DNA of 64,000 nucleotides. Origin: Owenweeksia hongkongensis DSM 17368 (GTDB taxonomy: Bacteria > Bacteroidota > Bacteroidia > Flavobacteriales > Schleiferiaceae). Below, one piece after another: positions 4,365-19,867 of this stretch (position 1 is the stretch's first letter; every line of letters begins with the position of its first letter). A model generated the notes under the pieces. It was given only the letters and a program-made list of their open reading frames with translations. It was not told where the DNA came from and ran no database searches. Where the stretch lies: positions 620,001-684,000 of the forward strand of contig NC_016599.1 in NCBI RefSeq assembly GCF_000236705.1, in the 5' to 3' direction. Position numbers and translations under genes: made by a program.

Positions 4365-5030
4365 TTACTCAAGGGCCACAAGGTTGTGCTTCAATGCATA
4401 CATCACAAGGCCTACACGAGACTTTACATCCAATTTATCAAACAGCTTAGCACGATATCCGTCCACAGTTTTTACACTAAGACACATAATGTCAGCAATC
4501 ATTTTATACGTATGCTCTGAGCAAGCTAGTTCAATAAAGCGCATTTCTTGATCGGTAAGCGCCACACCTTCATTAGTGCTTAATTCTGGGTGGGTAATTA
4601 CATGAACAAGCTTACCTGCCACATCTTCAGTGTAATAATACCCTGTATCGGCAATAGAATGCAAAGCTTCTTTTAGTTCATCAGGGTTTACATCTTTGTT
4701 AAGATAACCGTTTACACCCGCCCTTAAAAGCCTTATTAATGAAGTTTCATCATCTTTCATGGTGAGCGCTAGGATACCAATATCCTTATTTATATCACGC
4801 AATGCTTTGGTGGTCTGAAACCCGTCCATAATTGGCATGCTTACATCCATTATAACTACATCGGGCACTTGTCCATCATCTATTTGGGCCAAAAATTCTT
4901 TGCCGTGACTAGCTTCCTGCACCACCTTAAAGCGGTCATCAATTTGGTGGATGAGATTAATCAATCCTTTTCTAAAAAGGCTATGATCATCTACTACTGT
5001 AATGCTTAGTGGGTTGGTTAAGGTTTGCAT
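4365..5030 (-). CDS. LuxR/NarL-type response regulator
   Basis: This is a 221-residue two-component regulator. The receiver domain begins ITVVDDHSLFRKG, with the phospho-acceptor Asp62 in VVIMDVSMP and a conserved Lys region at ALTMKDDE. The C-terminal LuxR-type helix-turn-helix covers about residues 150-215 (LTDQEMRFIELACSEHTYKMIADIM then SVKTVDGYRAKLFDKL). It lies 5 bp downstream of the histidine kinase gene and is the last gene of the minus-strand set starting at 6939, so it is almost certainly the cognate regulator. The identical palindromes at 7032 and 10135 are candidate binding sites, because NarL-family proteins bind inverted repeats. That link is inference. Confidence 0.93.
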   Translation of the reverse strand: MQTLTNPLSITVVDDHSLFRKGLINLIHQIDDRFKVVQEASHGKEFLAQIDDGQVPDVVIMDVSMPIMDGFQTTKALRDINKDIGILALTMKDDETSLIRLLRAGVNGYLNKDVNPDELKEALHSIADTGYYYTEDVAGKLVHVITHPELSTNEGVALTDQEMRFIELACSEHTYKMIADIMCLSVKTVDGYRAKLFDKLDVKSRVGLVMYALKHNLVALE

Positions 5031-5035
5031 AAGGT

Positions 5036-5809
5036 TTAGGTTGGTAGGTTGATACGTATAAATGTACCCATATTTGGTGGGCTTTCCATATTAAATGTGG
5101 CGCCAATAAGCTTACAGCGGTGTTTTATGTTTTTTAGACCATTGCCTGTACTGTTGTGCAGAAGCTCGTCTAGCTTTTCTTTGGGTATGCCTACCCCATT
5201 GTCTTCTAGGTGAAAGACTATTTGATTGGCTTTTTCTTCAATACCCACCAATACCTGATTGGCTCCTGAGTGCTTGAGGATATTATTAATACCCTCCTGA
5301 AACATACGGTACAGGAAAATTGATATTTTAGAATCAAGTGAAATCTCTGTGGGTTTCGGATGAAACATAACTTTCACGAAACCACTTTTATTAATACGAT
5401 TTATGTCCTTTTCCATCATGCCAATCAACCCCATACTTTGCACATTTTCATAATTAAGGGAGTTGGATAGCCCACGTATTTCGGAGATAAGATGTTGTAG
5501 TAGCTGTTTGGACTCTGCGATTTTTTCGCCCTCTTCTTCACTTGTTGGAGGCGGCAGCATGTTAAGTTGAATTTTGGCTAAAGAAGCTATCTGCCCAATA
5601 TTGTCGTGTAGTTCGCGGGCTATGTCGGCTAGTGTTTGTTCACGTATTTCAACTTCACTTTCCAGCAGCGCTTGTTCAAACTGTTGGCGTTCTAACTCAA
5701 ACCTGAGTTGTGCTTTTTTGTAAAGAATAACGAAAAGAATAATAAAAACAGTAAGCACCGAAACCAAGGCTGTGCCTGCTATAAGAGGTATGGTGCTATC
5801 GGGGTTCAT
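5036..5809 (-). CDS. Minimal NarX/DesK-type sensor histidine kinase without a sensor domain
   Basis: This is a 257-residue kinase. A single hydrophobic helix (about residues 8-30) is followed directly by a short coiled coil and a HisKA_3 dimerisation helix with the phospho-acceptor His68 in ARELHDNIGQIASLAK. A GHKL ATPase domain follows (FQEGINNILKHSG as N-box, LEDNGVGIP, STGNGLKNIKHR). There is no periplasmic or cytoplasmic sensory domain, so input probably comes from a partner. The gene overlaps the upstream 7-TM gene by one base (TAATG), and the response regulator follows by 5 bp. The 7-TM protein is the obvious candidate sensor; this is inferred from coupling. Confidence 0.93.
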   Translation of the reverse strand: MNPDSTIPLIAGTALVSVLTVFIILFVILYKKAQLRFELERQQFEQALLESEVEIREQTLADIARELHDNIGQIASLAKIQLNMLPPPTSEEEGEKIAESKQLLQHLISEIRGLSNSLNYENVQSMGLIGMMEKDINRINKSGFVKVMFHPKPTEISLDSKISIFLYRMFQEGINNILKHSGANQVLVGIEEKANQIVFHLEDNGVGIPKEKLDELLHNSTGNGLKNIKHRCKLIGATFNMESPPNMGTFIRINLPT

Positions 5810-6516
5810 TAAGTATTTTTGTTTGACTGTGAATTATAATATAGCGCAAGGAAATAGCAAGCCAGTAGCACGAAATTTGAGAACCTTATTAATCCATAAC
5901 ACCATTCTGGTAGCAATTGTGCTTGCGCCATTATATGCTTAAAGTATCCAAAAACAAAAAAGGTAATAGAATAGAAAACAAGAGTTCCTGTGTTGAACCA
6001 AAAAATGGCTTGATGAAAAATCGGGATAGGTTTTGGTGATCGCAACATATTTCTAAAAAGTAGTAACCCAAAAGATACAAGGAAAAAACTATTTACAACT
6101 AGGCCTAGGGAGGGGAAGAAAGCCAGGTTGCCTTGAATCCAAATGGACACCATTTCAATAAAAAGTACAGTACTCACATAAATTCCAATTACCCATTTTA
6201 GCAGATTCTTAATTGGTTTTAGTAAATAGTATATCCGCGCATGATATAGGGTGGAGGCAACAATAAAAATGTGATAAACCGGGTAGCTGTGGCCATAGCT
6301 GTACGCGAAGAGTCGTGTGGAGAATTCACTGAGAAAACTTAGCACAATCAGCTGAACAAGTGTTTTAAAAGGTGGACTCAATCGTTTGTACCGAAACAGT
6401 CCAAAAAGTGCCACAGCAAGAATAACGAGCAGATATGAAACAAACCTCGGGGTAAATACATCCCCGAGGTTTATTGAGATGAAAATTAGTTGCATGACAT
6501 AGTATTTACTTATCAC
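5809..6516 (-). CDS. 7-TM integral membrane protein, putative sensor partner of the adjacent kinase
   Basis: This is a 235-residue protein with about seven hydrophobic helices and no catalytic motif I recognise. Recognisable marks are SYPVYHIF near residue 78, VSIWIQ with FPSLGL in the middle, and FWFNTGTLVFYSITFFVFGYF near the C-terminus. It is a clear paralogue of the protein at 8867-9523, which shares YPxYH, VSxWIQ, FPSxGL, FWFxxGxLxFYSxTFFxFGxFK and LIRxxN in the same order. The stop codon overlaps the kinase start by one base, and the start overlaps the end of the small Cys-rich gene. The ATG at 6495 is an alternative start. I infer a membrane sensor feeding the kinase; the family has no function I can name. 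Confidence 0.8.
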   Translation of the reverse strand: MISKYYVMQLIFISINLGDVFTPRFVSYLLVILAVALFGLFRYKRLSPPFKTLVQLIVLSFLSEFSTRLFAYSYGHSYPVYHIFIVASTLYHARIYYLLKPIKNLLKWVIGIYVSTVLFIEMVSIWIQGNLAFFPSLGLVVNSFFLVSFGLLLFRNMLRSPKPIPIFHQAIFWFNTGTLVFYSITFFVFGYFKHIMAQAQLLPEWCYGLIRFSNFVLLACYFLALYYNSQSNKNT

Positions 6517-6595
6517 ATTCGTCAGTATCGCAATCTGATTTACAACCAGATACTTTTGCTAGAATAGTACAACCTAAACTAAAGTTTGTAATCAT
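6506..6595 (-). CDS. 29-aa cysteine-rich small protein, translationally coupled
   Basis: This short gene encodes 29 residues beginning MITNFSLGCTILAKVSG and ending CKSDCDTDECDK, with four Cys, three of them in the last eleven residues. Its ATG (6595-6593) overlaps the TGA stop of the upstream 115-aa gene as ATGA. Its own end overlaps the ATG at 6516 of the 7-TM gene. The placement inside a coupled operon argues that it is translated. The hydrophobic start is too short for a sure signal peptide. It could be a precursor peptide or a small regulator; chance coding cannot be excluded at this length. Confidence 0.45.
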   Translation of the reverse strand: MITNFSLGCTILAKVSGCKSDCDTDECDK

Positions 6596-6939
6596 TGCGG
6601 ACACTTATTGGGACATGGGTCACAATAATCAATTGCGACAGCAGTACTTTGTTTATTGTCAGCATCAATTCCGGTTAGAATTGTTGTCACAGATTCTTCC
6701 CCACTAGGATAAGTTCTTATGGCAAATTGAATATATAATTCTTTGATATGTGAACCTTGAGCAAAAATTTGATCAATATGCTCCTTGTCAACTCTTAATC
6801 CCCTTAGTTGTAAGTTATTGGGGCCAGGTATGTTGATGTCTGATCTTTCAAGAAATTGGTCTAACATTACTTGCGCGATATCCCAGTTTTCAATTACATC
6901 TGATTTTTTTGGCTGAAAGCCTAATGTTTGATTTGGCAT
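6592..6939 (-). CDS. Conserved-looking protein with C-terminal CxxCPNKC motif
   Basis: This is a 115-residue cytoplasmic protein without a signal peptide, of no family I can name. It ends CDPCPNKCPQ, with Cys at 106, 109 and 113. Its layout matches the lipoprotein at 9552-10064. That shared layout is an N-terminal helix, a segment VDKEHIDQIFAQ (compare PVKEIKELLKNG), a strand IQFAIRTY (compare ILMFAASAKTY), and a final strand leading into PCPxKC. The two therefore look like distant paralogues. It is the first gene of the minus-strand set that continues through the small peptide, 7-TM protein, kinase and regulator. The palindrome at 7032-7050 lies 93 bp upstream of its start. Confidence 0.7.
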   Translation of the reverse strand: MPNQTLGFQPKKSDVIENWDIAQVMLDQFLERSDINIPGPNNLQLRGLRVDKEHIDQIFAQGSHIKELYIQFAIRTYPSGEESVTTILTGIDADNKQSTAVAIDYCDPCPNKCPQ

Positions 6940-7031
6940 TACTTATTATTTTTGGTTAAGACCTTAAAATTATGATTTAAAGCGAGGTATAACCGCGCTA
7001 TTCTATCAATTCAGGACTTATCCTAAACAGC

Positions 7032-7050
7032 AATAGGGGTTTTTCCTATT
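7032..7050. promoter_or_regulatory. 19-bp palindromic operator candidate, copy 1
   Basis: The sequence AATAGGGGTTTTTCCTATT consists of 6-bp inverted arms (AATAGG / CCTATT) around a 7-nt centre. An identical 19-mer occurs at 10135-10153. It sits in the divergent spacer between the 115-aa gene (minus) and the metzincin gene (plus). It is probably a binding site for a dimeric regulator; the neighbouring LuxR-type protein is the first suspect. Confidence 0.6.
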
Positions 7051-7168
7051 AGCTTGCAGGACAAAACCTATAGGGATGCTGGCCTCATTTTATGAATTTT
7101 GATAGGTCTTGAAGTTAGCTCTCAAATCAGGAAACTCTATTTTATTAAAATCAATTAATAAATAAGCG

Positions 7169-8263
7169 ATGCCCGATCAAGAATTAATCAACGTTGAAAT
7201 AGATAGCAATCAATGCCCTTGTCAATTACCAAAGCAACCTAGAAAACCACTACCAGAAGGTGTGTCTCCAGACCGAGCAACTATAATTCGGAGGTTTGGG
7301 CAAATATGGGTGAATGGAACGGAATTACATTATTGCTTTTGGGATCATACCAAGCATAATTGTCCCAAAGAATGGACAGCTAAAAATACAGAGAGTCTAA
7401 AAATTGTGGAAAGAGCCTTTAGGGAGTGGAAGGAGCTAGGCATTGGACTTGAATTTATAAAAGTGGACGATCCTTACGATGCAGAAATAAGGATTGGCTT
7501 TATGGAGGGTGATGGAAATTGGTCTGGAGTTGGAACAAACATTTTAAAGGCTCGATCAAATGAAAGAACCATGAATTTTGCTATTGATTTTACCCAGCTA
7601 AATTGGTTGCCATTTGATACAGCCTTACATGAAATAGGTCATACCCTGGGTTTTTATCATGGTCATCAAATTCCAAAATCGAAAATAATTTGGAATGACG
7701 AAGAGGTGTACAGGTATTACAGTGCAAAGGGTTGGTCCGATTCAGACATTAAAACAAATATCCTGGATAAAGAATCGGAGAATGTTCTCGATTTATTCCC
7801 ATGGGATACAAATTCTGTAATGCACTATCGTTTTAAGTCGACACTCATCTCGGGTCCAGAACCATATAATAGTACGGGTATTTCCCACACTCCATATCTG
7901 TCGCCATTGGATAAAGAGATTGTAAGGAAGCTTTACCCGCCTTTATCGAGCCAAAACTACATTCCCCTTAAGGCCTATCGTTCATACTCTGCAATACTGC
8001 AATCTGGAGAACAACTTGCTTTCACCATTAAACCCGATCATTCACGAGAGTTCACTTTTCAAACCTTTGGAAAAGTAGACACTGTGCTTGTTTTGTTCGA
8101 GAAAGACGGTGACTCACATCGCTACCTATCCGGTGATGATGATGCCGGATATAATCGTAATGCAATGATTACGCACAAATTGTTTAAGGATAGGGAATAT
8201 GTTTTGAGATTAAAAATGTACTACGCCATGGACAGGGGGGAAACAGCGGTTATGATGTTTTAA
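7169..8263 (+). CDS. Matrixin-like zinc metalloprotease (metzincin) with C-terminal beta domain
   Basis: This is a 364-residue protein. The zinc-binding signature HEIGHTLGFYH gives His154, Glu155, His158 and His164, and the Met-turn is SVMHY near residue 217, as in matrixins. The region upstream (RRFGQIWVNGTELHYCFWD, then EIRIGF and WSGVGT) fits the matrixin N-lobe. After the protease domain, about residues 275-364 form a beta-rich module resembling pre-peptidase C-terminal domains. No signal peptide or propeptide Cys switch is obvious; the N-terminus is polar and contains QCPCQL. How it would be exported, or whether it acts inside the cell, is unclear. It is divergent from the two-component set, with the palindrome between them. 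Confidence 0.87.
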   Translation: MPDQELINVEIDSNQCPCQLPKQPRKPLPEGVSPDRATIIRRFGQIWVNGTELHYCFWDHTKHNCPKEWTAKNTESLKIVERAFREWKELGIGLEFIKVDDPYDAEIRIGFMEGDGNWSGVGTNILKARSNERTMNFAIDFTQLNWLPFDTALHEIGHTLGFYHGHQIPKSKIIWNDEEVYRYYSAKGWSDSDIKTNILDKESENVLDLFPWDTNSVMHYRFKSTLISGPEPYNSTGISHTPYLSPLDKEIVRKLYPPLSSQNYIPLKAYRSYSAILQSGEQLAFTIKPDHSREFTFQTFGKVDTVLVLFEKDGDSHRYLSGDDDAGYNRNAMITHKLFKDREYVLRLKMYYAMDRGETAVMMF

Positions 8264-8327
8264 ATAAAGGTTTATTTTTAAATGATGCAAAGTGAAAGGC
8301 ATCGCAAGAAATCAAATCTAAACCACC

Positions 8328-8870
8328 ATGGCTTACTTCCGTCCACTCTTTATTGGTATCGATCAATTGATAAATACCATTGCCGGAGGAGATCCTGACA
8401 ATACAATATCTTCCAGAATAGGCTATTATGCTGAGCATGGCCCAGAAAACCAGATAAAGATGTGGAAAGCATTTGCCTGGATCACGGACAAAACGTTTTG
8501 GCCTTTAGAAGGTGATGACCATTGCCATATTGCATATCATGCTGATCCCGGAGAAAATTTTGATGCCGATAAAAATGGAGTAGGAGTGGTTGTTCTCTTT
8601 ATCCTCACTCTGCCATTTTTGATATTCATTGGGGCATTACTTTACCTTGGGTGGGCGGTTGGTTTAGTAAAGCAGATCCACCTAGATAGGAGTGAAGCTA
8701 TTCGACAACGATTGTTCAAAACCTCCAAAATGCTAATCTCTATTAAAGAGGAGTTAGTAGAAAACCCATTGGCTGATCCAGCATTACTAAAAAGTATGGA
8801 CTCCGTGGTAGAAAGAGCTGCTGAAGCGCGTGCGGAAATAGAGAAGGGTATACAAGCAGATGTAAACTAA
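8328..8870 (+). CDS. Hypothetical membrane-anchored protein
   Basis: This is a 180-residue protein I do not recognise with certainty. The N-terminal half is polar with NTISSRIGYYAEHG, TFWPLEGDDHCH and ADPGENF, suggesting a small conserved domain. One hydrophobic segment (about residues 86-112, VGVVVLFILTLPFLIFIGALL) is a single membrane anchor. The C-terminal 65 residues are charged and helical with a likely coiled coil (RAAEARAEIEKG). It follows the metalloprotease by 64 bp on the same strand and may be co-transcribed. Its stop overlaps the stop of the convergent 7-TM gene by 4 bp. Confidence 0.7.
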   Translation: MAYFRPLFIGIDQLINTIAGGDPDNTISSRIGYYAEHGPENQIKMWKAFAWITDKTFWPLEGDDHCHIAYHADPGENFDADKNGVGVVVLFILTLPFLIFIGALLYLGWAVGLVKQIHLDRSEAIRQRLFKTSKMLISIKEELVENPLADPALLKSMDSVVERAAEARAEIEKGIQADVN

Positions 8871-9523
8871 GCCGAGGTCGCCTTTCTTCCTTGACGCCCC
8901 GCTAGCCAAAGAGTAATGAGATAGCAGGAATACATTATGTAATTGGCGATTCTTATGAGTATATAGCCCCAATCGGGAACATCACTCCCCGTATCCCTAA
9001 TGCTTTTGAAAAGACCAAAAAAGAAAAAAGTTGACGAATAAAATATTAGACTACCAATCCCGAACCAGAATTTAGGTTCTTTTATTAAGGATTTGCTTTC
9101 AGGGTTCAAAAGCATTTTTGTGAATAATACCAACGAGCAAAATGTCACATAAAGCCCTAATAGACTTAGCCCAATTGAAGGGAAGGTGTAGATGCTTTGA
9201 ATCCAAACACTAACCAATATTGAAGTCATTGCAACAATACCTGAAATCAAAATTGGCCAATACTTCAATTTAGTACTTGTTTTAAAAAAGTGATAAAAAA
9301 TAAAGCCGTAAACAACACTTGATATTGCTGGCACAGAATGATAAAGTGGATAGTTAGTTTTAGAATATTTTTGCAAAGCTAATGCACCAATTTCTGCTAC
9401 AATTATAAACAAGGTAAGCAGAACAATAAGTTTGATTGGTTTACTAAATAAGCTAAATTTTACTACTCCAACCCAACAACATGTTAAGAGCAATAACAAA
9501 TAGATTAATTGATAAAGTGGCAT
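8867..9523 (-). CDS. 7-TM membrane protein, paralogue of the 5809-6516 protein
   Basis: This is a 218-residue protein with about seven hydrophobic helices. It shares with the kinase-linked 7-TM protein the ordered motifs NYPLYH, VSVWIQ, FPSIGL, KFWFGIGSLIFYSSTFFFFGLFK and LIRIAN. No kinase follows it; the gene ends by overlapping the convergent gene at 8328-8870. It lies 28 bp downstream of the lipoprotein gene, so it repeats the arrangement CPxKC protein then 7-TM protein. It may be an alternative or modulating receptor for the same kinase, or a duplicate without a partner. Confidence 0.78.
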   Translation of the reverse strand: MPLYQLIYLLLLLTCCWVGVVKFSLFSKPIKLIVLLTLFIIVAEIGALALQKYSKTNYPLYHSVPAISSVVYGFIFYHFFKTSTKLKYWPILISGIVAMTSILVSVWIQSIYTFPSIGLSLLGLYVTFCSLVLFTKMLLNPESKSLIKEPKFWFGIGSLIFYSSTFFFFGLFKSIRDTGSDVPDWGYILIRIANYIMYSCYLITLWLAGRQGRKATSA

Positions 9524-9551
9524 CTTAAAAAGAAGTCATTGAGTATTAACA

Positions 9552-10064
9552 TTATTCTTTGAAATGCGAAACTTCATCTTTCAAAACTTCATCCAGACAC
9601 TTATCAGGACAAGGGCTAAATACATTATATACTCGGTCTGTTTGAATTTTAATCTTTTTGCCTTCGTTTTTCGCACCTAACATTATTAAACTGAAGTTTT
9701 GATTCCACCACCATTTATTTTTATAAGTTTTCGCGCTTGCCGCAAACATTAGGATAATTTCATCATCCTCGCTATATCCATTCTTAAGTAATTCCTTTAT
9801 TTCTTTTACTGGAATTCTAACATATTTTAGTACTTCTCTTGTATGGCCTATTTTGTTTTTCATTGCAAGCGGATGCTCTAAATAGGCTTCCACCATTTTT
9901 TTTGCTTTTATTGAATCAATACATGTCCCATTTGATTGATCCCAGCATATCTCAGATTTAATGGAAAGATCTCCTGATGAGGTAGCTTCAAAAGTTGGAG
10001 AAAAACATCCCTGTAGTAATGAAGTAATTATTACGAGAACTAGGCACGAGATTAAACTTTTCAT
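9552..10064 (-). CDS. Lipoprotein with C-terminal CPDKC motif, paralogue of the 115-aa protein
   Basis: This is a 170-residue protein starting MKSLISCLVLVIITSLLQGC, a lipoprotein signal with a lipobox Cys at residue 20, so it should be membrane-anchored outside the cytoplasm. I chose the ATG at 10064 because the longer frame from 10121 would bury the signal peptide. The mature part shares its layout with the protein at 6592-6939 (PVKEIKELLKNG, ILMFAASAKTY, FSLIMLGAKNEGKK) and carries SPCPDKC at residues 150-156, followed by an acidic tail. The 7-TM paralogue follows after 28 bp. The 19-bp palindrome is 71-89 bp upstream, with a TTG and TATTTTTA pair between them as possible -33 and -7 boxes. 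Confidence 0.72.
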   Translation of the reverse strand: MKSLISCLVLVIITSLLQGCFSPTFEATSSGDLSIKSEICWDQSNGTCIDSIKAKKMVEAYLEHPLAMKNKIGHTREVLKYVRIPVKEIKELLKNGYSEDDEIILMFAASAKTYKNKWWWNQNFSLIMLGAKNEGKKIKIQTDRVYNVFSPCPDKCLDEVLKDEVSHFKE

Positions 10065-10134
10065 AAGATTTGGTTTTACGGTTATCTCATAAAAATAGAA
10101 CCTTTCCATGTCGAATTCCAAGCTGCACTTTGAG

Positions 10135-10153
10135 AATAGGGGTTTTTCCTATT
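10135..10153. promoter_or_regulatory. 19-bp palindromic operator candidate, copy 2
   Basis: The 19 bases are identical to those at 7032-7050 (AATAGGGGTTTTTCCTATT). Read on the minus strand, the palindrome ends 13 bp before a TTG that is followed 21 bp later by TATTTTTA, so it would lie just upstream of a promoter for the lipoprotein gene, where an activator binds. A plus-strand transcript ending at the orphan terminator near 10286 could also start here. Confidence 0.6.
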
Positions 10154-10253
10154 TTTTTCAGGGAATTGCCTCTTGCTCTTGGTTTATCTTCTCACGATAT
10201 TTGTTTATATCAATTTGAATTGTAAATCAACGCTAATTCAACCAAACCTTAGG

Positions 10254-10417: not shown

Positions 10418-10552
10418 CTAATCTAAGGTGTTTATCATTACCATTTCATCAGTTGGTCTGTCATCGGGGTCATCACCATTGTCGCATTGGCATTCAGAAG
10501 CCAATAAGACTGAACCAACAATTAGCGCAGCAAAAATTGTATACGTTTTCAT
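10418..10552 (-). CDS. 44-aa small exported peptide, Cys-containing
   Basis: The gene encodes 44 residues with a hydrophobic export-type N-terminus (MKTYTIFAALIVGSVLLASE) followed by CQCDNGDDPDDRP, a very acidic stretch, and the tail TDEMVMINTLD. The first Cys could be a lipobox (LASEC is imperfect), or the peptide could be cleaved and released. An intrinsic terminator lies directly downstream, which supports a real short transcription unit. Its position beside the CPxKC lipoprotein and 7-TM genes invites the idea of a secreted signal, but nothing in the sequence proves it. Confidence 0.55.
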   Translation of the reverse strand: MKTYTIFAALIVGSVLLASECQCDNGDDPDDRPTDEMVMINTLD

Positions 10553-11281: not shown

Positions 11282-13264
11282 TTAATTATAATATGATTTA
11301 TAAATACCATCTGCCTTTTTTTCCATTTTTTCCTTGTTATAAAAGTGAGCTTGTAGATATTCAATAAAGTCTTTGTGTACATCATTTTTTGAGGGTAGAC
11401 TATAAGATCGCACATAGGGGAACTTCATCAAACAGCCTTCCTTCTCCCTTACCGAACCAACCAGAACCTGAAGATCTCTAACCCGTTTTTCTTGATCAAA
11501 AACTTCCTCAAAACTCATTTTTAAAACTTCTTCATAAGCTTCTTTAGTCTTTTCTGAGCTCCTCGATTCAAAATATCCAACATTTAGAAACTCAATTTCA
11601 TTTACACCATATTTCATAAAGATGCTCCAATATCCCGGCTCAAGTATATGTAGCTCAGTTTTGTTAGAGTTTGAAATAAGCCTGATCAGAGAGAATATTT
11701 CCATTTCACTTAGGAAACGATACTCGTCAATGGATTTGGCACGGATATCTTGCATAAACAAGAGCTTTTTATCTTCAAAAGGACCAAGAATATTTCTCAC
11801 TTTGGATCTTATAAAAAGACTATCCTCTAGAGTGGCAGGTATTGAAATTTTTTCATCCCCTTGCTTTATAACTACGTCAAAATCATTCATTACGGTAAGG
11901 GTTCTGCTCCTCAAATCATTCCATATATACCCGTTTAGAAGCGCATCAGCATATTCAGGATAATCAATTGGGCTTTTGGAAAGATAGTTGCGCAAGAGCT
12001 CATTTCTGGCGTCTTTGTCATGAGTTACGCTTAGGGCATTCGATAAAATAACTTCATTATTTCCCAAAGCCAGACCTACCTGATAATAGAATAGAAATGC
12101 TTGTTCATTGGTTATAAATTTTGGGGAATCTTCCCAATAAAACATAGTGGGTATTGTATTTTCTTCATCCTCCGTTATTAGCAATAAATCTGGGCGAAAC
12201 TCGGTAAATATGTTTTCCTCCATCAATTTTTTCACTTTAAAATTACCAACCTCAGAGGAGTTATAGTAGCGGTAGGTAATAAAGTTTTCTTTCCATTTGG
12301 TGGGATCTAAATAGCACATCTTACGAATAGCCTCTACAATATAATACACGTATTCCGGGTTGTTGGGGTCATACAAGTGATATTTAAATGCCTTCTCAAT
12401 ACAATCATCATACTTGTAAGTTGCAAGAAGGTTTTTCAATACTTCACCTTTGCATTGTTTTTTCAATCTTCCAAATAACATTTTACTCACCAAAAAAGGT
12501 TTTCCTATTGAGTCTACTTGGGTTTTCTGCGCATAGGTATTAAATCTTTCCAGTCTCTTTGATGCTCCGGGATGACTCGTTTCTTTAAGCTCCCATTTAT
12601 CTTTGAGTCTACTTATTAGCTGATTTTCAAGTTGAAGTGAAATCTCCTGAGATTTCCTCATTCCATCAAGAGCATACCCGGATTGCTCAAGCCAAATAGT
12701 AGCAAGTGAGTCTGCTTCATTTTCATTTTGAATTGAGAATCTTTCATTAGCACCAAAATCATAGAATAAAGTTCTAAAGTCCCCACTTTCTGACTTTATA
12801 AACCTTTCTAAAGAATGCTTTAAATAATAATGTGCAAGCTCGTGGGCCATTATTGATGCAAGGGTGGCTTCATCATCTATTTGAGCCAAAACTCCTACGT
12901 TGATAAACATGCTTCCTGAAGGTGTCATGAAGGCATTAAAGGATCCATCAGCTAATATATAGGCATGAAGTAGAGAATCATTAGCCAGCTGGGGTGGAAC
13001 TATTCTTTGAAATATGGCATTTAGATAGAGTTCCCATTGCGCCCAATCTGTGTATACACGGCCACTATGCATGAGTTTAGAAATTTCCTTAGCGGAGAGA
13101 TCGGCAAACCTGTAAGTCCGCCTTTCCCATTTACCTTGTTTTAAGTCATCATCTATTCCATTGTAAATATGGGTTCTAAGTACATCCACATTGGCATAAA
13201 CACTAGCTTGAGAAAAAGCCAGGCAAGGCATCAGGGCGATGCAGAGGGAAATAAGAGGTTTCAT
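11282..13264 (-). CDS. M48-type zinc metallopeptidase, exported
   Basis: This is a 660-residue protein with a signal peptide (MKPLISLCIALMPCLAFSQ). The M48 signature HELAHYYLKH gives zinc ligands His141 and His145 and catalytic Glu142; a downstream NENEADSLA supplies the third ligand Glu. This peptidase domain occupies about residues 70-260. The remaining 400 residues are a helical region without a motif I can name. No membrane helices follow the signal, so the enzyme is probably periplasmic, as for BepA/YfgC-like quality-control proteases. The start at 13264 is preferred over 13318 because it begins the signal peptide. It is monocistronic. Confidence 0.87.
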   Translation of the reverse strand: MKPLISLCIALMPCLAFSQASVYANVDVLRTHIYNGIDDDLKQGKWERRTYRFADLSAKEISKLMHSGRVYTDWAQWELYLNAIFQRIVPPQLANDSLLHAYILADGSFNAFMTPSGSMFINVGVLAQIDDEATLASIMAHELAHYYLKHSLERFIKSESGDFRTLFYDFGANERFSIQNENEADSLATIWLEQSGYALDGMRKSQEISLQLENQLISRLKDKWELKETSHPGASKRLERFNTYAQKTQVDSIGKPFLVSKMLFGRLKKQCKGEVLKNLLATYKYDDCIEKAFKYHLYDPNNPEYVYYIVEAIRKMCYLDPTKWKENFITYRYYNSSEVGNFKVKKLMEENIFTEFRPDLLLITEDEENTIPTMFYWEDSPKFITNEQAFLFYYQVGLALGNNEVILSNALSVTHDKDARNELLRNYLSKSPIDYPEYADALLNGYIWNDLRSRTLTVMNDFDVVIKQGDEKISIPATLEDSLFIRSKVRNILGPFEDKKLLFMQDIRAKSIDEYRFLSEMEIFSLIRLISNSNKTELHILEPGYWSIFMKYGVNEIEFLNVGYFESRSSEKTKEAYEEVLKMSFEEVFDQEKRVRDLQVLVGSVREKEGCLMKFPYVRSYSLPSKNDVHKDFIEYLQAHFYNKEKMEKKADGIYKSYYN

Positions 13265-13430
13265 TTTTGTTAGTTGAGTTAAATTCAAGTCAGCCAAGCA
13301 AATATAAACGCATATCATTAATGGAAAAATTTTATGACTTAGTTAAGTTTTTTTAAGGAGCTTAGGATGTAATTCCTCTCTATTTCTTTGTCATTTGCTC
13401 CTGTATATTTTCATATCCTCATGTAAAGAT

Positions 13431-13449
13431 TACGGGGGTTTTTCCCTAC
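13431..13449. promoter_or_regulatory. Variant of the palindromic operator motif
   Basis: The bases tacgggggtttttccctac share the core GGGGTTTTTCC with the two identical 19-bp palindromes and keep an inverted-repeat layout with altered arms. It lies between the M48 gene (minus) and the T9SS protein at 13574 (plus). It may be a weaker site for the same regulator. Confidence 0.4.
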
Positions 13450-13573
13450 AGTCCTCTATTTATTTCACCCTTCATTATCAGTCTTTTCCCTCTTGATAAA
13501 GCTTTGTCTGAGCTTGACCTTTGTATTGTAACCCCAAAGCGAGGTTGCGTCATTTTAACCAAAAACCTTATTC

Positions 13574-14572: not shown

Positions 14573-15889
14573 ATGAAAACTTATATAACAATATGCATTA
14601 ACCTGGCTTTGGGCCTAGGAATTATAGCCCAAGATTTACCTATTAATTTGAAGGATTACTCACCAATGCCATTACCTACATATAATGAGCGAGAAACATT
14701 ACCAAAGCCAGATGACCATTGGTTTATACACTTCTCTTTAAATGGCGTTGATACGATAAAGTCTAATTTGACTGATTACCCAGATACTTTTTGGACAAAT
14801 AAAAATCAGGATAATAATTCCTTAAATGTGATAGATGAAAGTGGCAGCAATACATTAAATGCTGATGAACCCAATGCTTATTTGTTCTCAAACCTTCAGC
14901 CAGCTGATGGAATACCAGGTTTTCCTTACTACCCATTTAGTGCTGTGGTAAAAATATACTTAGCTATGAAGGATGACAATGGAAATATTAGCTTTTCTTC
15001 ATGTTCAGGAATAATGATTGGCCCTAATCATGTGCTAACTGCAGGCCATTGTATTAAAAGTGATGACAAAGTGCTTGTTATCCACAATGGTTCGGTGGCT
15101 GTGCCTGCTTACAATATGGGTACTTCGCCCTACGGATATGCTTATATCAACGGCTGGTATGCCTTCAATGGATGGCTGCAAGGACAGGATTTTAATTATG
15201 ATGTAGGTGTACTTAGCCTTAATTCCAGCATTGGCAAGACTACAGGTTATCATGGGCTTGCTTACAATCTAAACAATGGATGGTTTACCAATAGCACTCA
15301 AAGCCTAAGCAGCATTGGCTACCCTGCACAAGATGATAATGGAAACCCTGTGTATGAGGCTGGTGAAAGGATGTATGCCATGAATGGATCAATGGATTTT
15401 ATCAAGGGAACCAATATTTTATGTCATAACAATATAGGTTTCCGTGGTCAAAGTGGGAGTGGTCTTTATTTCAAAGATACCAATGGTGATAGATATGCCC
15501 TTGGAGTGCTCAGTCATGGAAACGGCAAAACTTTTCCATATAATACTTGCCACACAAGGATGGATGCCCAGATGTTCAACCAAATTGTTGGCATTGTAAG
15601 TTCCTCAATAGATATTACCGAAATACAACCCGATAAAGACCAACGGTTTGAAATTTACCCAAATCCAGTAGTGGATGAATTATCAGTTAAAACCCTAGGT
15701 TCAAACGTATATTTTGAATTGAAAATACTGGACATCATGGGAAAAGTGCTTATTCATGAAACGGTTTATCACACAACCGATCCCGATGTGTATAAATTCG
15801 ATTTGTCTAAATTAGGTAATGGAACATACGTTTGTCAGCTTAATACAGCGTCAAATCTTTTGACTCAAAAATTAATTTTAAAGCTATAA
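14573..15889 (+). CDS. Trypsin-like serine endopeptidase with T9SS sorting domain
   Basis: This is a 438-residue protein with a signal peptide (about residues 1-19). The chymotrypsin-fold domain shows the full catalytic triad: His159 in VLTAGHC, Asp210 in NYDVGVL and Ser294 in RGQSGSGLY. The domain resembles V8/glutamyl endopeptidase-like bacterial enzymes. From about residue 360 a T9SS type A domain follows (FEIYPNPVVDELSV, ending LTQKLILKL). It should therefore be an extracellular or surface protease, exported by Sec and type IX. It follows the small exported protein by 25 bp. A perfect 10-bp hairpin ends the unit at 15939-15968. Confidence 0.92.
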   Translation: MKTYITICINLALGLGIIAQDLPINLKDYSPMPLPTYNERETLPKPDDHWFIHFSLNGVDTIKSNLTDYPDTFWTNKNQDNNSLNVIDESGSNTLNADEPNAYLFSNLQPADGIPGFPYYPFSAVVKIYLAMKDDNGNISFSSCSGIMIGPNHVLTAGHCIKSDDKVLVIHNGSVAVPAYNMGTSPYGYAYINGWYAFNGWLQGQDFNYDVGVLSLNSSIGKTTGYHGLAYNLNNGWFTNSTQSLSSIGYPAQDDNGNPVYEAGERMYAMNGSMDFIKGTNILCHNNIGFRGQSGSGLYFKDTNGDRYALGVLSHGNGKTFPYNTCHTRMDAQMFNQIVGIVSSSIDITEIQPDKDQRFEIYPNPVVDELSVKTLGSNVYFELKILDIMGKVLIHETVYHTTDPDVYKFDLSKLGNGTYVCQLNTASNLLTQKLILKL

Positions 15890-16021: not shown

Positions 16022-19000
16022 ATGGTTATTTTCACAAGACACCAAATCACCGCCATGCTCCCTAGTTCTCGATTGTATTTAGTTCTGACTCTGTGTTTTA
16101 TTTCCTTATGGATAAGTGCACAAGAACTTCCCATTCTTCAACGTACATTTCATCATATTGATAGAACGTCTGGACTTCCAAGTTTGGAGGTAAACTATTT
16201 GCTGGAAGATGATTTAGGTTTTATTTGGATGGCTACCAATAATGGGCTGTGCCGCTATGATGGGCAAGAGCTTAAAGTTTGGAAAGCTTCAGACTCTATT
16301 CCAGGTAGCTTACAGAGCTCAGTCATCCTTTCATTGGCGTGTGATAAGCAAGGTTGGATATGGGCCAACACCGAACTGGGTGGGCTGAATGCCTACAATC
16401 CCAAAATGAATAAATGGTACCACTGGGGGACGGATACCACTTTGGAGAATGGCTTTATGTACAATTCACCCGCCACGGTATTTGCCGCAAAGGATGGAAG
16501 CATTTGGTGTTCTTCCATGTGGTACTTGCATCACATAAGCAAAACAGATACAGGTATTAGTTTTCAGAGTTTTGAAATGGCGCTGTTTTCCGAATCGAAA
16601 AAACCGCTGATGATAATCAATGAAATAATTGAAGATTCGGCTACTGGCAATCTCTGGCTAGCCACAGGACGGGGTTTGGTAGGTTTTGATAGAGTAGAAA
16701 ATAAATTTTTGTACAGCCAAAAGCAATTGGCCAACAATGACCCACCGGGTATTACAAGGCTGCTGATTAGCCAGCAAGGCTATTTTTATGCAGGATTGTA
16801 CGATGGTGGTTTGGCAAGGGTAAGAGCAGAGGGGGTAAAACCAGGTTATGAATTTGAATCTATGGAAAATCTGCCTGATGGTTTTAAAAAACAAAGGCCA
16901 CGAAAAATATCACAAGCTGCTAGTGGCGAAATTTTTATATCCGGATATGGCATCTTAAAAATAGATGAATCTCAAGAAGAGCTAGAATTGGAATGGTTTT
17001 ACAAAATTCCAAACTTACCCCAAAGTCTCCCGCATACCATTGTAAAACACGTGATAAAAGATAAGGCTGGAAACTGGTGGACAGCCTCTCATAATGGAGT
17101 GGGTGTTTATTACCCCAATGCTCCCGATTTTCAAATAATAAGTAGCCAAACTCTAAATGATGAAAATTTTGATAATCGTATTTATCGTGTATTTAAGGAT
17201 AGCCGGGGCTGGCTTTGGTTTGGTGGCCAGGATGGACTGTATGTAACAAAATCTGAATGCGGCAACCCGCAGCGTATCATGCTGGAAGGTAATATTGCTA
17301 ATGAACCGGGATTTGTAGCAGGCATTGATGAAGGAATAAACGGAGAAATATGGGTAGCGGTTGCCCCTTATTTGTATAAGATTGACCCGCAAAATTTATC
17401 CTTCCAGCAAATAAAAGTTACTTACCCACGGCCGGAATTAAACAACCTTTTTTTGATGAACCTAAAAGTGGATGATAAAGGCCTTGTATTTATTCCAGGT
17501 ATAGGCGGCATCCCTTTTTATAATGAGGCACAAAATAGCTGGGACAATCACAGGCCCGAGTATGCTTCGTATTTCTATGGTTTAGGATTTTTGGATGATC
17601 AACATTATGTAACGGCTGATAATGCCGTGTTGTACATCATCAATACTGAAGAATCTACTTTAGAAATTATTGAAAAAGATGGACAGGGAAAAAATAAACA
17701 ACCTTACTTACAAGGTATTAAAAACTTTATGCTCGAGGATTCAGTGGCCTATATCTCACAGCAAGAAAAGTTGGTTACTTACGATTTTCGTACTGAAAAA
17801 TGGAGTGAATATTCCGAAACAGAAGGGCTGACCGGAGGACGCGTTTTAGCTTTAGCGGTAGATACCAAAGGAAAAATATGGCTGTCTACAGACATGGGGA
17901 TTGCACGTTTTGACCCAATAAACAAAAAGGTGGAAACCTTGGCATTGGTGCCGGATATACCCGTGTCGCAATTTAACAGTAGAGCAGGTTGGGCAGGAGA
18001 TGGGCGCGTATATTTTGGTACCGACAAAGGCATTGTACACTTTAATGAAGATGCGCTTCGCCAAAATGAGTACGAAGCACCCGTCTATATCACTGGCATT
18101 TCGGTGTACAATAAAAGCGTGCCTGTGATTTCACCGAGTGTGAATAAAGGCATTCCTGTGGCTCCTGAATATCTAGACCAACTTAGTTTATCATCCAATC
18201 AAAATATGATGAGCCTGAGGTTTGCGGCCCTCAATTTTCACAGTGCCTCACAAAATCGCTACGCCTTTCGGCTAAAAGGTTTTGCTGACGAATGGATAGA
18301 AGTTGAAAATTCGCATCAAGCTACCTTTACCAATCTTGACCCTGGGGAGTATCAGTTTGAAGTGAAAACGGCAAATAGCAGTGGTATATGGAGTTCACAA
18401 GTTGCCACGCTAAACTTACAAGTGATTCCACCTTGGTATAAAACCTGGTGGGCCATGCTATTCTTTGGTTTCCTCATTGTTATCATCCTATTTTATATAT
18501 GGCGTTTGCGCTTACAAGCGGTACGCGAAAAAATGCTCTCTGAGGCTCGTGTAGAAAAAGCAAGGATAGAAGAGCGGGAAGAGTTTCGAAAACGGAGTGC
18601 TGCAGATTTTCATGATGAAGCCGGAAACAAGCTTACCAAAATAAACCTATTTACCAGCTTAGCGCGGGAGCAGCAAAATGGAAATGCTGAGCTGAACAAC
18701 TATCTCTTTAAAATAGAGCAAAACACCAAGGAGTTACTTGCCGGGATGCGCGACTTTTTGTGGGTAATGGACCCAACGCGAGACTCACTATTCGACACCA
18801 TATCGCGTCTCAAAACTTTTGGCGAATCTATGTTTGATGATACACATACTACTTTCAGCATTAGTGGATTGCGAAAGACTTACCACGATATACCACTAAG
18901 CATGGATGTGCGAAGGGCCATCATGCAGATTTTTAAAGAAGGAATGAATAATTGCGCCAAACATGCTTGTGCAAAAAAGCTGGTGTTACGTGTGTCTTTG

Positions 19001-19207
19001 GAGGGGCAAAAACTTAGCCTATGTCTTGAGGACGATGGAAAAGGTTTTGACCCCAGCCTGAAAAAAGAAGGCAGCTATGGGCATGGAATTATGAATGAAA
19101 GGGCAGAAAGAATAGGAGCCAACTTACAAACACTGAGCAAGGAAGGTATAGGCACCAAGCTTTGCCTCGATTACAAAATACCCCAAATGAGTGAGGTAAG
19201 CGACTGA
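16022..19207 (+). CDS. Two-component propeller sensor histidine kinase (Reg_prop, Y_Y_Y, HisKA_3)
   Basis: This is a 1061-residue membrane sensor. A signal segment ends WISAQ. A long periplasmic beta-propeller follows, made of Reg_prop-like blades (LGFIWMATNNGLCRYDG, GWLWFGGQDGLYV, GKIWLSTDMGIARFDP). A Y_Y_Y domain lies near residues 735-800 (RFAALNFHSASQNRYAFRLKGF). One membrane helix (WWAMLFFGFLIVIILFYIW) precedes a HisKA_3 helix with DFHDEAGNKLTKI near residue 865 and a GHKL ATPase domain (FKEGMNNCAKHA, LEDDGKGFD, YGHGIMNERAERIG). It lacks the AraC output domain of hybrid Bacteroides sensors; instead a LuxR regulator follows. The ATG at 16055 is an alternative start. The ligand is unknown. 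Confidence 0.92.
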   Translation: MVIFTRHQITAMLPSSRLYLVLTLCFISLWISAQELPILQRTFHHIDRTSGLPSLEVNYLLEDDLGFIWMATNNGLCRYDGQELKVWKASDSIPGSLQSSVILSLACDKQGWIWANTELGGLNAYNPKMNKWYHWGTDTTLENGFMYNSPATVFAAKDGSIWCSSMWYLHHISKTDTGISFQSFEMALFSESKKPLMIINEIIEDSATGNLWLATGRGLVGFDRVENKFLYSQKQLANNDPPGITRLLISQQGYFYAGLYDGGLARVRAEGVKPGYEFESMENLPDGFKKQRPRKISQAASGEIFISGYGILKIDESQEELELEWFYKIPNLPQSLPHTIVKHVIKDKAGNWWTASHNGVGVYYPNAPDFQIISSQTLNDENFDNRIYRVFKDSRGWLWFGGQDGLYVTKSECGNPQRIMLEGNIANEPGFVAGIDEGINGEIWVAVAPYLYKIDPQNLSFQQIKVTYPRPELNNLFLMNLKVDDKGLVFIPGIGGIPFYNEAQNSWDNHRPEYASYFYGLGFLDDQHYVTADNAVLYIINTEESTLEIIEKDGQGKNKQPYLQGIKNFMLEDSVAYISQQEKLVTYDFRTEKWSEYSETEGLTGGRVLALAVDTKGKIWLSTDMGIARFDPINKKVETLALVPDIPVSQFNSRAGWAGDGRVYFGTDKGIVHFNEDALRQNEYEAPVYITGISVYNKSVPVISPSVNKGIPVAPEYLDQLSLSSNQNMMSLRFAALNFHSASQNRYAFRLKGFADEWIEVENSHQATFTNLDPGEYQFEVKTANSSGIWSSQVATLNLQVIPPWYKTWWAMLFFGFLIVIILFYIWRLRLQAVREKMLSEARVEKARIEEREEFRKRSAADFHDEAGNKLTKINLFTSLAREQQNGNAELNNYLFKIEQNTKELLAGMRDFLWVMDPTRDSLFDTISRLKTFGESMFDDTHTTFSISGLRKTYHDIPLSMDVRRAIMQIFKEGMNNCAKHACAKKLVLRVSLEGQKLSLCLEDDGKGFDPSLKKEGSYGHGIMNERAERIGANLQTLSKEGIGTKLCLDYKIPQMSEVSD

Positions 19208-19234
19208 TATTTAATACTAAATTGCTAATGAATT

Positions 19235-19867
19235 ATGGACACAGAAAAGGACATAAAAGTAATGATAGTGGAGGATGACGATGAGATCAGGGAACTGATG
19301 CACATGATTATCGGCAAGTCTCCTGGTTACGATTGTGTGGCCGCTTTTCGCGACTGTGAGAGTGCTTTGAAACCCGTTACCGTAGAATTGCCAGAAGTAG
19401 TGCTGATGGATATCGAATTGCCTGGAATGAACGGTATTGAGGGTATCCGTAAGCTGAAAGAAAAAGTGCCCGAAACAGATTTTATCATGCTTACCATTCG
19501 CGATGATGATGAGTCCGTATTTGAATCGCTAAAAGCCGGAGCAACTGGCTATCTCTTAAAAGATACACCACCTGCCAGGCTGCTTGAAGCCATTCGTGAA
19601 GTACACGAAGGCGGGTCGCCCATTACACCCAGCGTGGCGCGCAGGGTTACCAATTCTTTCCACCCCCAGTCTGTCTCACCACTCTCTGACCGTGAAACTG
19701 AAGTGCTGGCACGCCTTTGCGAAGGAGAGGCTTATAATACTATTGCAGAACGATTTTTCATTAGTGGTCACACCGTACGGGCACACATCAAAAACATTTA
19801 TCGAAAGCTACAAGTAAACTCACGCGGAGAAGCGGTAAAAACTGCTATAAAAGATAGACTCATCTGA
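19235..19867 (+). CDS. LuxR/NarL-type response regulator, partner of the propeller kinase
   Basis: This is a 210-residue regulator. The receiver domain starts VMIVEDDDEIRELM and carries the phospho-acceptor Asp in VVLMDIELPGMNG and the conserved Lys in LLKDTPP. The C-terminal LuxR helix-turn-helix is LSDRETEVLARLCEGEAYNTIAERFFISGHTVRAHIKNIYRKL. It starts 27 bp after the kinase gene on the same strand, so the two form an operon and a cognate pair. Targets are unknown; the secreted T9SS genes upstream and the lipoprotein downstream are natural candidates. Confidence 0.93.
   Translation: MDTEKDIKVMIVEDDDEIRELMHMIIGKSPGYDCVAAFRDCESALKPVTVELPEVVLMDIELPGMNGIEGIRKLKEKVPETDFIMLTIRDDDESVFESLKAGATGYLLKDTPPARLLEAIREVHEGGSPITPSVARRVTNSFHPQSVSPLSDRETEVLARLCEGEAYNTIAERFFISGHTVRAHIKNIYRKLQVNSRGEAVKTAIKDRLI

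Follow-up and report, generated by a model that had tools for sequence, protein, structure and literature searches.

How does a histidine kinase that lacks a sensor domain receive its signal? The question is raised by two gene cassettes in a 64,000-nucleotide stretch of the Owenweeksia hongkongensis DSM 17368 genome (contig NC_016599.1, positions 620,001 to 684,000 of the forward strand; hereafter the window). Each cassette encodes a CPxxC protein followed by a protein with seven transmembrane helices (7TM protein), and one of them continues into such a kinase and a response regulator. Little is known of how the Bacteroidota recognise other cells or sense ligands. We show, as a pattern in the sequences, that some lineages exchange the 7TM gene while the kinase and regulator stay near-identical. 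On balance we consider it probable that a conserved, autoregulated two-component system uses the 7TM protein as its exchangeable receptor subunit and the CPxxC protein, or its counterpart with a PP tail, as an accessory. The features concerned are the following.

4365..5030, minus strand: response regulator of the NarL/LuxR type (REC + GerE; Pfam Response_reg 1.7e-26, GerE 8.3e-10)
5036..5809, minus strand: histidine kinase with one transmembrane (TM) helix and no sensor domain (HisKA_3 + HATPase_c by Pfam; one hydrophobic segment)
5809..6516, minus strand: 7TM protein of cassette 1 (seven long helices predicted by AlphaFold2, pLDDT 89.6; homologues)
6592..6939, minus strand: CPxxC partner protein of cassette 1 (homologues at the same place in sister genera; no Pfam family)
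7007..7073, minus strand: operator array 1, three AGG-N6-CCY sites (7058-7069, 7036-7047, 7013-7024)
8867..9523, minus strand: 7TM protein of cassette 2, own kinase absent (31% identity to the cassette 1 7TM protein, 40% to that of genome G026)
9552..10064, minus strand: CPxxC partner protein of cassette 2, lipoprotein-like N terminus (LLQGC) in its translation (aligned with the partner family)
10131..10176, minus strand: operator array 2, two AGG-N6-CCY sites (10160-10171, 10139-10150)

This layout agrees with most of what the original prediction had read from the window: two minus-strand sets with a CPxKC protein before a 7TM protein, one running on into a kinase and a LuxR regulator and the other ending after the 7TM gene, and the same 19-mer before both, which we find at 7032-7050 and 10135-10153. 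Its description of overlapping starts and stops holds for the 7TM stop and the kinase start, which share one base, and not for the kinase and regulator genes, which lie 5 bp apart. The cassette 1 7TM gene is read here from a GTG start at 6516, and the in-frame ATG at 6495 is the likelier start. Judged by alignment, the two 7TM proteins are homologous (31% identity over 198 residues, E 5e-31) and the two CPxxC proteins weakly so (24% identity, E 1e-4).

The kinase and the regulator together carry all four domains of a HisKA_3 kinase and NarL/LuxR two-component pair above the Pfam cut-off, and the kinase residues H68, N176, D203, G205 and G207 are invariant in 16 aligned kinases. The prediction of a kinase with a single TM helix and no sensor domain is borne out: one TM helix is predicted, and the domains recognised are HisKA_3 and HATPase_c. 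Its best NCBIfam match is UhpB (3e-27), which at 95.5 bits is far below the cut-off of 408 bits.

Is the separate 7TM protein a plausible receptor for this kinase? Neither the 7TM proteins of the window nor any of 37 members of the family reach the cut-off of any Pfam or NCBIfam model. Pfam families of 7TM sensors (7TMR-DISM, HisKA_7TM and the like) are not matched by the 37 members, and the nine families that match weakly, at E 0.1 or less, include no such sensor. The model of the cassette 1 protein has short predicted outside loops. Over 110 homologues, the fraction of lysine plus arginine is 0.26, 0.29 and 0.16 in loops 1-2, 3-4 and 5-6 and 0.34 in the C terminus, and it is 0.10, 0.07 and 0.07 in loops 2-3, 4-5 and 6-7. 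By the positive-inside rule, these charges fit a topology with the N terminus outside and the C terminus inside (N-out/C-in).

A Foldseek search of the model against the PDB gave no significant match, the best being a proteorhodopsin (E 0.054). VIA-align returned a Z of 14.2 to a designed protein resembling G-protein-coupled receptors (GPCRs) and of about 12-13 to natural GPCRs and rhodopsins, which is near the level usual for helical bundles with this tool. The helices are thus predicted to be arranged like those of GPCRs and rhodopsins, a shared arrangement that we do not take as homology. Microbial rhodopsins bind retinal through a lysine in helix 7; the window 7TM protein has no lysine in residues 204-228 (TM7), the only one nearby being K233 at the tail.

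The association of the 7TM gene with the kinase extends across the phylum. We took the best 80 of at least 543 loci confirmed in a kinase-profile scan of named genomes, whose titles name Bacteroidota groups. In 74 of these 80 a 7TM homologue lies directly upstream, ending within 260 bp of the kinase match. The other six comprise three with an adjacent open reading frame (ORF) of 5-7 hydrophobic segments (L054, L072, L090), two with the 7TM gene one gene further up (L050, L055) and one at a contig end (L092). A 7TM-profile search gave matches in 44 of 198 genomes sampled over the phylum, the window's own included. The kinase adjoins 24 of the 30 loci picked in this way, one of the 30 being cassette 2 of the window, and the partner gene is recognised in 22 by profile, or in 26 when a CPxxC/PP tail is also accepted, which is a loose criterion. 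The original prediction had proposed a search for 7TM and CPxKC proteins beside HisKA_3 kinases in other genomes and named a lack of co-occurrence as grounds for refutation; this check did not refute it, since 7TM, kinase and partner genes do occur together across the Bacteroidota.

Within the GTDB family of the window, the 7TM protein is present in 14 of 88 genomes, the window's own included. Fifteen loci of other family genomes (L014-L028) have the order partner, 7TM protein, kinase, regulator, except at the contig ends of L020 and L021; the distant loci L023-L028 have larger first genes, that of L025 without CPxxC. The kinase was searched for in 25 family genomes (all 13 others with any 7TM protein, and 12 without) and exceeds 170 bits in nine, exactly the nine with a close 7TM protein (E under 1e-18). 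One locus that appears as both L085 and G015 was counted once. Contigs end inside CPxxC or 7TM genes in G015 (C29, C70) and G021 (C121) (L021, L031), which would be expected if the sampled populations were mixed for receptor alleles, though chance may also account for it.

The principal new finding is how the 7TM gene varies between close relatives. When the window is compared with G026, a genome of the same genus, seven flanking genes are 61-100% identical (a range that omits overlapping-frame ORFs and one match between non-corresponding genes, 14573-15889) and the regulator and kinase 91%; for the 7TM protein the value is 35%, and for the CPxxC protein it is about 24%. At the DNA level, identity climbs from 46 to 91% in the 90-base segment starting at the start codon of the kinase gene, and the two kinases agree in all of their first 50 residues. 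Synteny is interrupted, since 28 kb of G026 contain no match for several window genes located between the cassettes or beyond them. The G026 7TM protein is 42% identical to that of G022, which belongs to another genus, 39-40% to that of cassette 2 and 35% to that of cassette 1. The trees conflict accordingly: the 7TM tree joins G026 with G022 (97/95) and the kinase tree joins the window with G026 (100/99), where the approximately unbiased (AU) test gives p 6e-5 against G026 with G022.

Similar differences were observed in other lineages. In G014/G015 the regulator is 98% identical, the kinase core 96%, the partner 65% and the 7TM protein 52%. In the Polaribacter pair L071/L089 seven flanking ORFs are 92-100% identical, the regulator 96%, the partner 73% and the 7TM protein 29%, the L071 7TM protein being no nearer to that of L089 than to those of other genera. 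The Kordia pair L069/L104 has 50-52% in the 7TM protein and 97% in the regulator; in L047/L069 the 7TM protein keeps 83%. Across several lineages, the 7TM protein forms an island of divergence, with identities of 28-52%, next to kinase cores and regulators that retain 88-100%.

Two genera were each searched with the kinase of a single member. Within the genus of G175 the kinase is present in 42 of 78 genomes, and in the loci of the best 30 of these 42 the 7TM gene is directly upstream in 29. The 7TM protein falls below 55% identity in 57 of 65 pairs whose kinase cores are at least 75% identical, and in 12 of 15 at 85% or above; relative to the kinase core its median shortfall is 44 points, whereas the partner has a median shortfall of 16 and the regulator one of -8. 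In the clearest pair (L224/L226) the kinase core is 96% identical, the regulator 100%, the partner 93% and the 7TM protein 46%. Their DNA identity begins to drop at the last codons of the partner gene, reaches its lowest values (40-56%) in the initial part of the 7TM gene and is back at 82% where that gene ends. This pattern points to a receptor whose target may differ from strain to strain.

For the analysis of variation within the proteins, swapped pairs were defined by a kinase core of 80% or more and a 7TM protein under 55%, which gave 28 pairs from 17 loci in the genus of G175; members recur among the pairs, which are not independent. In swapped and control pairs alike, conservation is lower in the first 57% of the 7TM protein than in the remainder. 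In five divergent 7TM pairs TM6 retains 73% identity, and the other helices 30-50%. Tandem 7TM genes stand before or near one kinase in L108 (four genes), L075, L051, L086, L185 and L188, suggesting receptor repertoires.

The first genes of the cassettes look like one very divergent family. Thirty aligned members share a core of the form E-L-x-x-(F/Y)-I ... G-(I/V)-R-x-Y-F-G-A-Y ... T, and the C-terminal tail is often N-x-G-x-x-C-P-P-x-C or N-x-G-x-x-x-P-P. No Pfam model is above cut-off for ten partners and those of the window, nor any NCBIfam model for the latter. The window CPxxC protein was modelled with a pLDDT of 74, and a PDB search at E 0.001 gave no match to the model. Among 104 partners, 71 show no signal peptide, 21 a lipobox, 10 another N-terminal hydrophobic segment and 2 several helices; these classes are rough, since the ORFs were read from the longest possible start. 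No signal peptide is seen in the cassette 1 protein. The 102 partners that are not multi-helix comprise 37 with CPxxC, 5 with a CPP variant, 41 with a PP tail and 19 with neither. The CPxxC residues are invariant in ten aligned partners of the window's own GTDB family. A possible likeness to Sco proteins raises the idea of a thiol or metal switch; as a general rule this is ruled out by the 41 of 102 partners with a PP tail and the 19 with neither motif. A cysteine-rich ORF of 29 residues that lies between the CPxxC and 7TM genes of cassette 1 (6506-6595, minus strand) was considered as a peptide pheromone and rejected, because in G026 only a few bases part the CPxxC and 7TM genes.

Is the system autoregulated? 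The 19-mer before the cassettes is a palindrome, AATAGG-N7-CCTATT, with perfect 6-bp arms and an asymmetric 7-bp centre. The 4.0-Mb genome has three exact copies of it, two of which precede these cassettes, and no copy of the backwards control pattern; if two mismatches are tolerated, matches in the window are no less frequent than chance predicts (5 seen versus 4.25 expected). The palindrome at 7032-7050 holds the middle site of array 1, and that at 10135-10153 lies inside array 2. Such an array consists of two or three AGG-N6-CCY sites spaced by 20-24 bp (~22 bp), often opens with CAAGAGG, and has its last site beginning about 90 bp before the first gene. It is also present upstream of cassettes in sister genera and other families. 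A site pair at array spacing was counted in 12 of 68 upstream regions elsewhere; among 3400 dinucleotide shuffles there were 6 with such a pair, and among 5219 other windows from these loci there were 27. The pattern used was derived from the family loci and loosened (N5-7, A/G first, C/T last) after the upstream regions had been viewed.

Two profiles of the array were built. R1 was trained on 17 arrays, both of those in the window among them. In the 88 family genomes it yields ten matches under E 1e-5; eight are training arrays and the remaining two, in G022 and G015:C70, are also cassette promoters, the latter carrying the front of a cassette split by a contig end. R2 was trained on seven arrays, all from other families, with L063 (out of register) and L036 left out. 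On 243 kb from 14 family stretches it gives 11 matches, ten on cassette promoters and one elsewhere, and it matches the promoters of all eight group-1 cassettes with upstream DNA in these stretches (best E per promoter 1.5e-5 to 0.029); in the window its best match is array 2, before cassette 2 (E 0.0065). From these results we infer that the regulator binds the array. The original prediction that the regulator controls both cassettes is thus supported by the conserved operator array in both promoters, and the binding itself is deduced from sequence.

The idea of a wide regulon was rejected: beyond the cassettes, two sites in the window's genome reach E 0.05 with R1. One, at C1:105341-105402 (L127, L209), is the third-best array of this genome (E 2e-4) and stands before a lipoprotein-like gene. 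The other lies in the window, beside a peptidase gene.

13414..13497 (genome 633414-633497), minus strand: weak candidate array (R1 E 0.04, whole genome), upstream of the M48 peptidase gene
11282-13318, minus strand: M48 peptidase gene (Peptidase_M48 1.2e-14)

Genes beside the sites in 18 fetched stretches have no homology to one another at E 1e-3.

Other genes were noted around the arrays. A matrixin/astacin-like metalloprotease (window 7169-8263, plus strand) lies between the cassettes and starts divergently from operator array 1; it resembles NCBIfam AbsR1 (1.3e-88), below the cut-off. A small divergent gene shares the operator region in L015, L017, L018, L019 and L022 (e.g. L017:584-922, minus strand), with a motif near YDFPPxDGIYDFDF and no Pfam family in two members; it is not seen beside the window cassettes. 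Upstream of cassette 2 lies a 44-residue ORF resembling a signal peptide (10418-10552, minus strand). A second HisKA_3 system is located near the cassettes (16022-19867, plus strand): a sensor kinase of 1061 residues with Reg_prop/Y_Y_Y domains, followed by a 210-residue ORF that is perhaps its regulator, with homologues in G026 at 72 and 96%, respectively.

Based on these results, we propose the following mechanism. The kinase has no sensor of its own, and the separate N-out/C-in 7TM protein would be its receptor subunit. From where the variation lies, the signal may be recognised by the more variable first half of the 7TM protein, and coupling to the TM helix of the kinase may fall to the better conserved second half and to TM6 in particular. 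The CPxxC/PP-tail protein could be an accessory on the 7TM-kinase complex, perhaps acting through its C-terminal tail, a role that we put forward with less assurance. The original prediction had suggested that the CPxKC protein modulates the 7TM protein; CPxxC itself is not constant among the partners, a PP tail taking its place in about as many. The phosphorylated regulator would bind the array of two or three sites about two helical turns apart and activate its own operon. In this genome it would also activate the second CPxxC-7TM cassette, and two types of receptor would then act on a single kinase-regulator pair. Replacement of the receptor gene by very different alleles, with kinase and regulator kept, would be expected if the ligand differs between strains. 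The original prediction that the 7TM protein is the sensor is favoured by the lack of a sensor in the kinase, by the topology and by a polymorphism like that of receptors.

Several results weigh against this proposal or narrow it. The 7TM tree opposes the grouping of window and G026 with an AU p of only 0.039, and long branches are present. Exchange is not a general rule: the 7TM protein keeps 88% identity in L177/L179 and 78% in L029/L030, and in the control genus of G112 (kinase in 26 of 121 genomes, 7TM protein in 26 of the 26) none of 98 pairs has a 7TM protein under 55%, with a median shortfall of 1. Exchange is thus lineage-specific, and the 7TM protein is therefore not fast-evolving everywhere. 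Six of the 30 loci picked by the 7TM protein have no adjacent kinase. With 71 of the 104 partners lacking a signal peptide, many may be cytosolic. As for the array, weak R1 matches (E 0.1 or less) occur in 48 of the 88 family genomes versus 14 with the 7TM protein; since most of the 48 lack it, the motif is non-specific at low scores and only strong matches are informative. R2 has no match at six distant-type family loci and misses array 1 in the window, and neither cassette is significant genome-wide with it.

Could the 7TM protein be something other than a receptor? The chief rival, which we regard as unlikely, is that the CPxxC and 7TM proteins are auxiliaries whose expression the regulator induces and which turn the kinase into a phosphatase or stabilise it. 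SaeP and SaeQ induce phosphatase activity of SaeS, and the gene plan here resembles that of saePQRS as described in PMC5083920, with lipoprotein and membrane-protein genes first and an autoinduced promoter with two regulator sites. The array stands upstream of the CPxxC-7TM pair, and cassette 2 repeats that pair alone. However, the kinase is almost without an extracellular part, so that another protein must sense; seven helices, rather than four, are predicted in the membrane protein; and there is no clear reason why feedback modulators should be replaced wholesale beside an unchanged kinase. Less probable still, in our estimation, is self-signalling of the agr/comQXPA kind, in which the CPxxC/PP-tail protein or its C-terminal tail would be the cognate ligand of the polymorphic 7TM protein. 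A polymorphic receptor by a conserved kinase and regulator does recall the agr hypervariable region (excerpt of PMC10482373), and partner and 7TM protein both diverge between the window and G026. In 15 of the 17 swapped pairs in which the partner keeps at least 60% identity, conservation is lower in its last 30 residues than in the remainder, but the same holds for 54 of 70 unswapped pairs of the control genus. This pherotype reading is weakened because the partner keeps 60% or more in those 17 of the 28 swapped pairs, and 70% or more in 9 of the 28; the two proteins do not appear to co-vary as a ligand-receptor pair would, which also counts against the general proposal. Moreover, most partners lack a secretion signal, and no processing or export gene is recognised in the cassettes read.

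Polymorphism might also arise because the 7TM protein is a target of phage, bacteriocins or other attackers rather than through a varying ligand. Arms races can yield local allele replacement in some lineages and not in others, but the predicted outside loops are short, a defence-system scan with PADLOC gave only one weak match (the regulator, E 0.0085) and the 7TM gene is usually within the kinase operon; we consider this explanation very improbable. We keep to the exchangeable receptor subunit. A bolder version of it, which we hold as tentative and rather doubtful, is that a family of exchangeable GPCR-like receptors, spread over the phylum with one allele per strain on a shared kinase-regulator chassis, recognises a strain- or partner-specific chemical identity, with two receptor types under one regulator in genomes like that of the window. 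A conserved kinase with interchangeable receptors would offer a ready reporter, in which the 7TM protein is swapped, the rest is held constant and the operator array serves as readout. No curated Pfam or NCBIfam model matches the receptor family, yet it is present in 44 of the 198 sampled genomes of the phylum.

How does the system compare with known ones? The original prediction knew of no described system of this composition, and we found none in the open-licence PMC literature, judged from listings. In UhpABC, a separate membrane receptor, UhpC, works with the HisKA_3 kinase UhpB and the LuxR regulator UhpA; unlike the proteins here, UhpC is homologous to transporters and UhpB contains a multi-helix region of its own. 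The predicted seven-helix, N-out/C-in arrangement is shared with microbial rhodopsins and GPCRs, from which the 7TM protein differs in having no significant Foldseek or Pfam match and no TM7 lysine before the tail. 7TMR-DISM proteins and BtsS carry the 7TM unit within the signalling protein, whereas the 7TM protein here is separate. Both nevertheless show a seven-helix receptor unit in bacterial signalling proteins (for BtsS, excerpt of PMC10653868).

The kinase and regulator of SaePQRS are of other classes than the HisKA_3/NarL pair, and its gene order is P-Q-R-S; we compare it by plan, not by homology. It is alike, in Staphylococcus aureus, as a four-gene operon with upstream lipoprotein and membrane-protein genes by a kinase-regulator pair and a promoter with two regulator sites before the first gene, and unlike in that SaeQ has four predicted helices versus seven (excerpt of PMC5083920, which mentions no receptor exchange). 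A parallel in variation is offered by the quorum-sensing loci agr and comQXPA, whose hallmark, local hypervariability of the receptor with a conserved kinase core and regulator, is also seen here, except in the genus of G112. In comQXPA a hypervariable sensor region stands by a conserved kinase core and regulator, and ComP/ComA are also of the HisKA_3/LuxR class. In agr the hypervariable sensor region likewise lies beside a conserved kinase core and regulator (PMC10482373). Unlike in both, the partner here has about 100-300 residues, often does not co-vary and has no recognised peptide-processing gene beside it in the cassettes read, and the variable receptor is a separate 7TM protein. What appears to be new, and apparently undescribed, is a two-component system with a separate receptor and of unusual breadth, in which agr-like polymorphism resides in a stand-alone 7TM protein.

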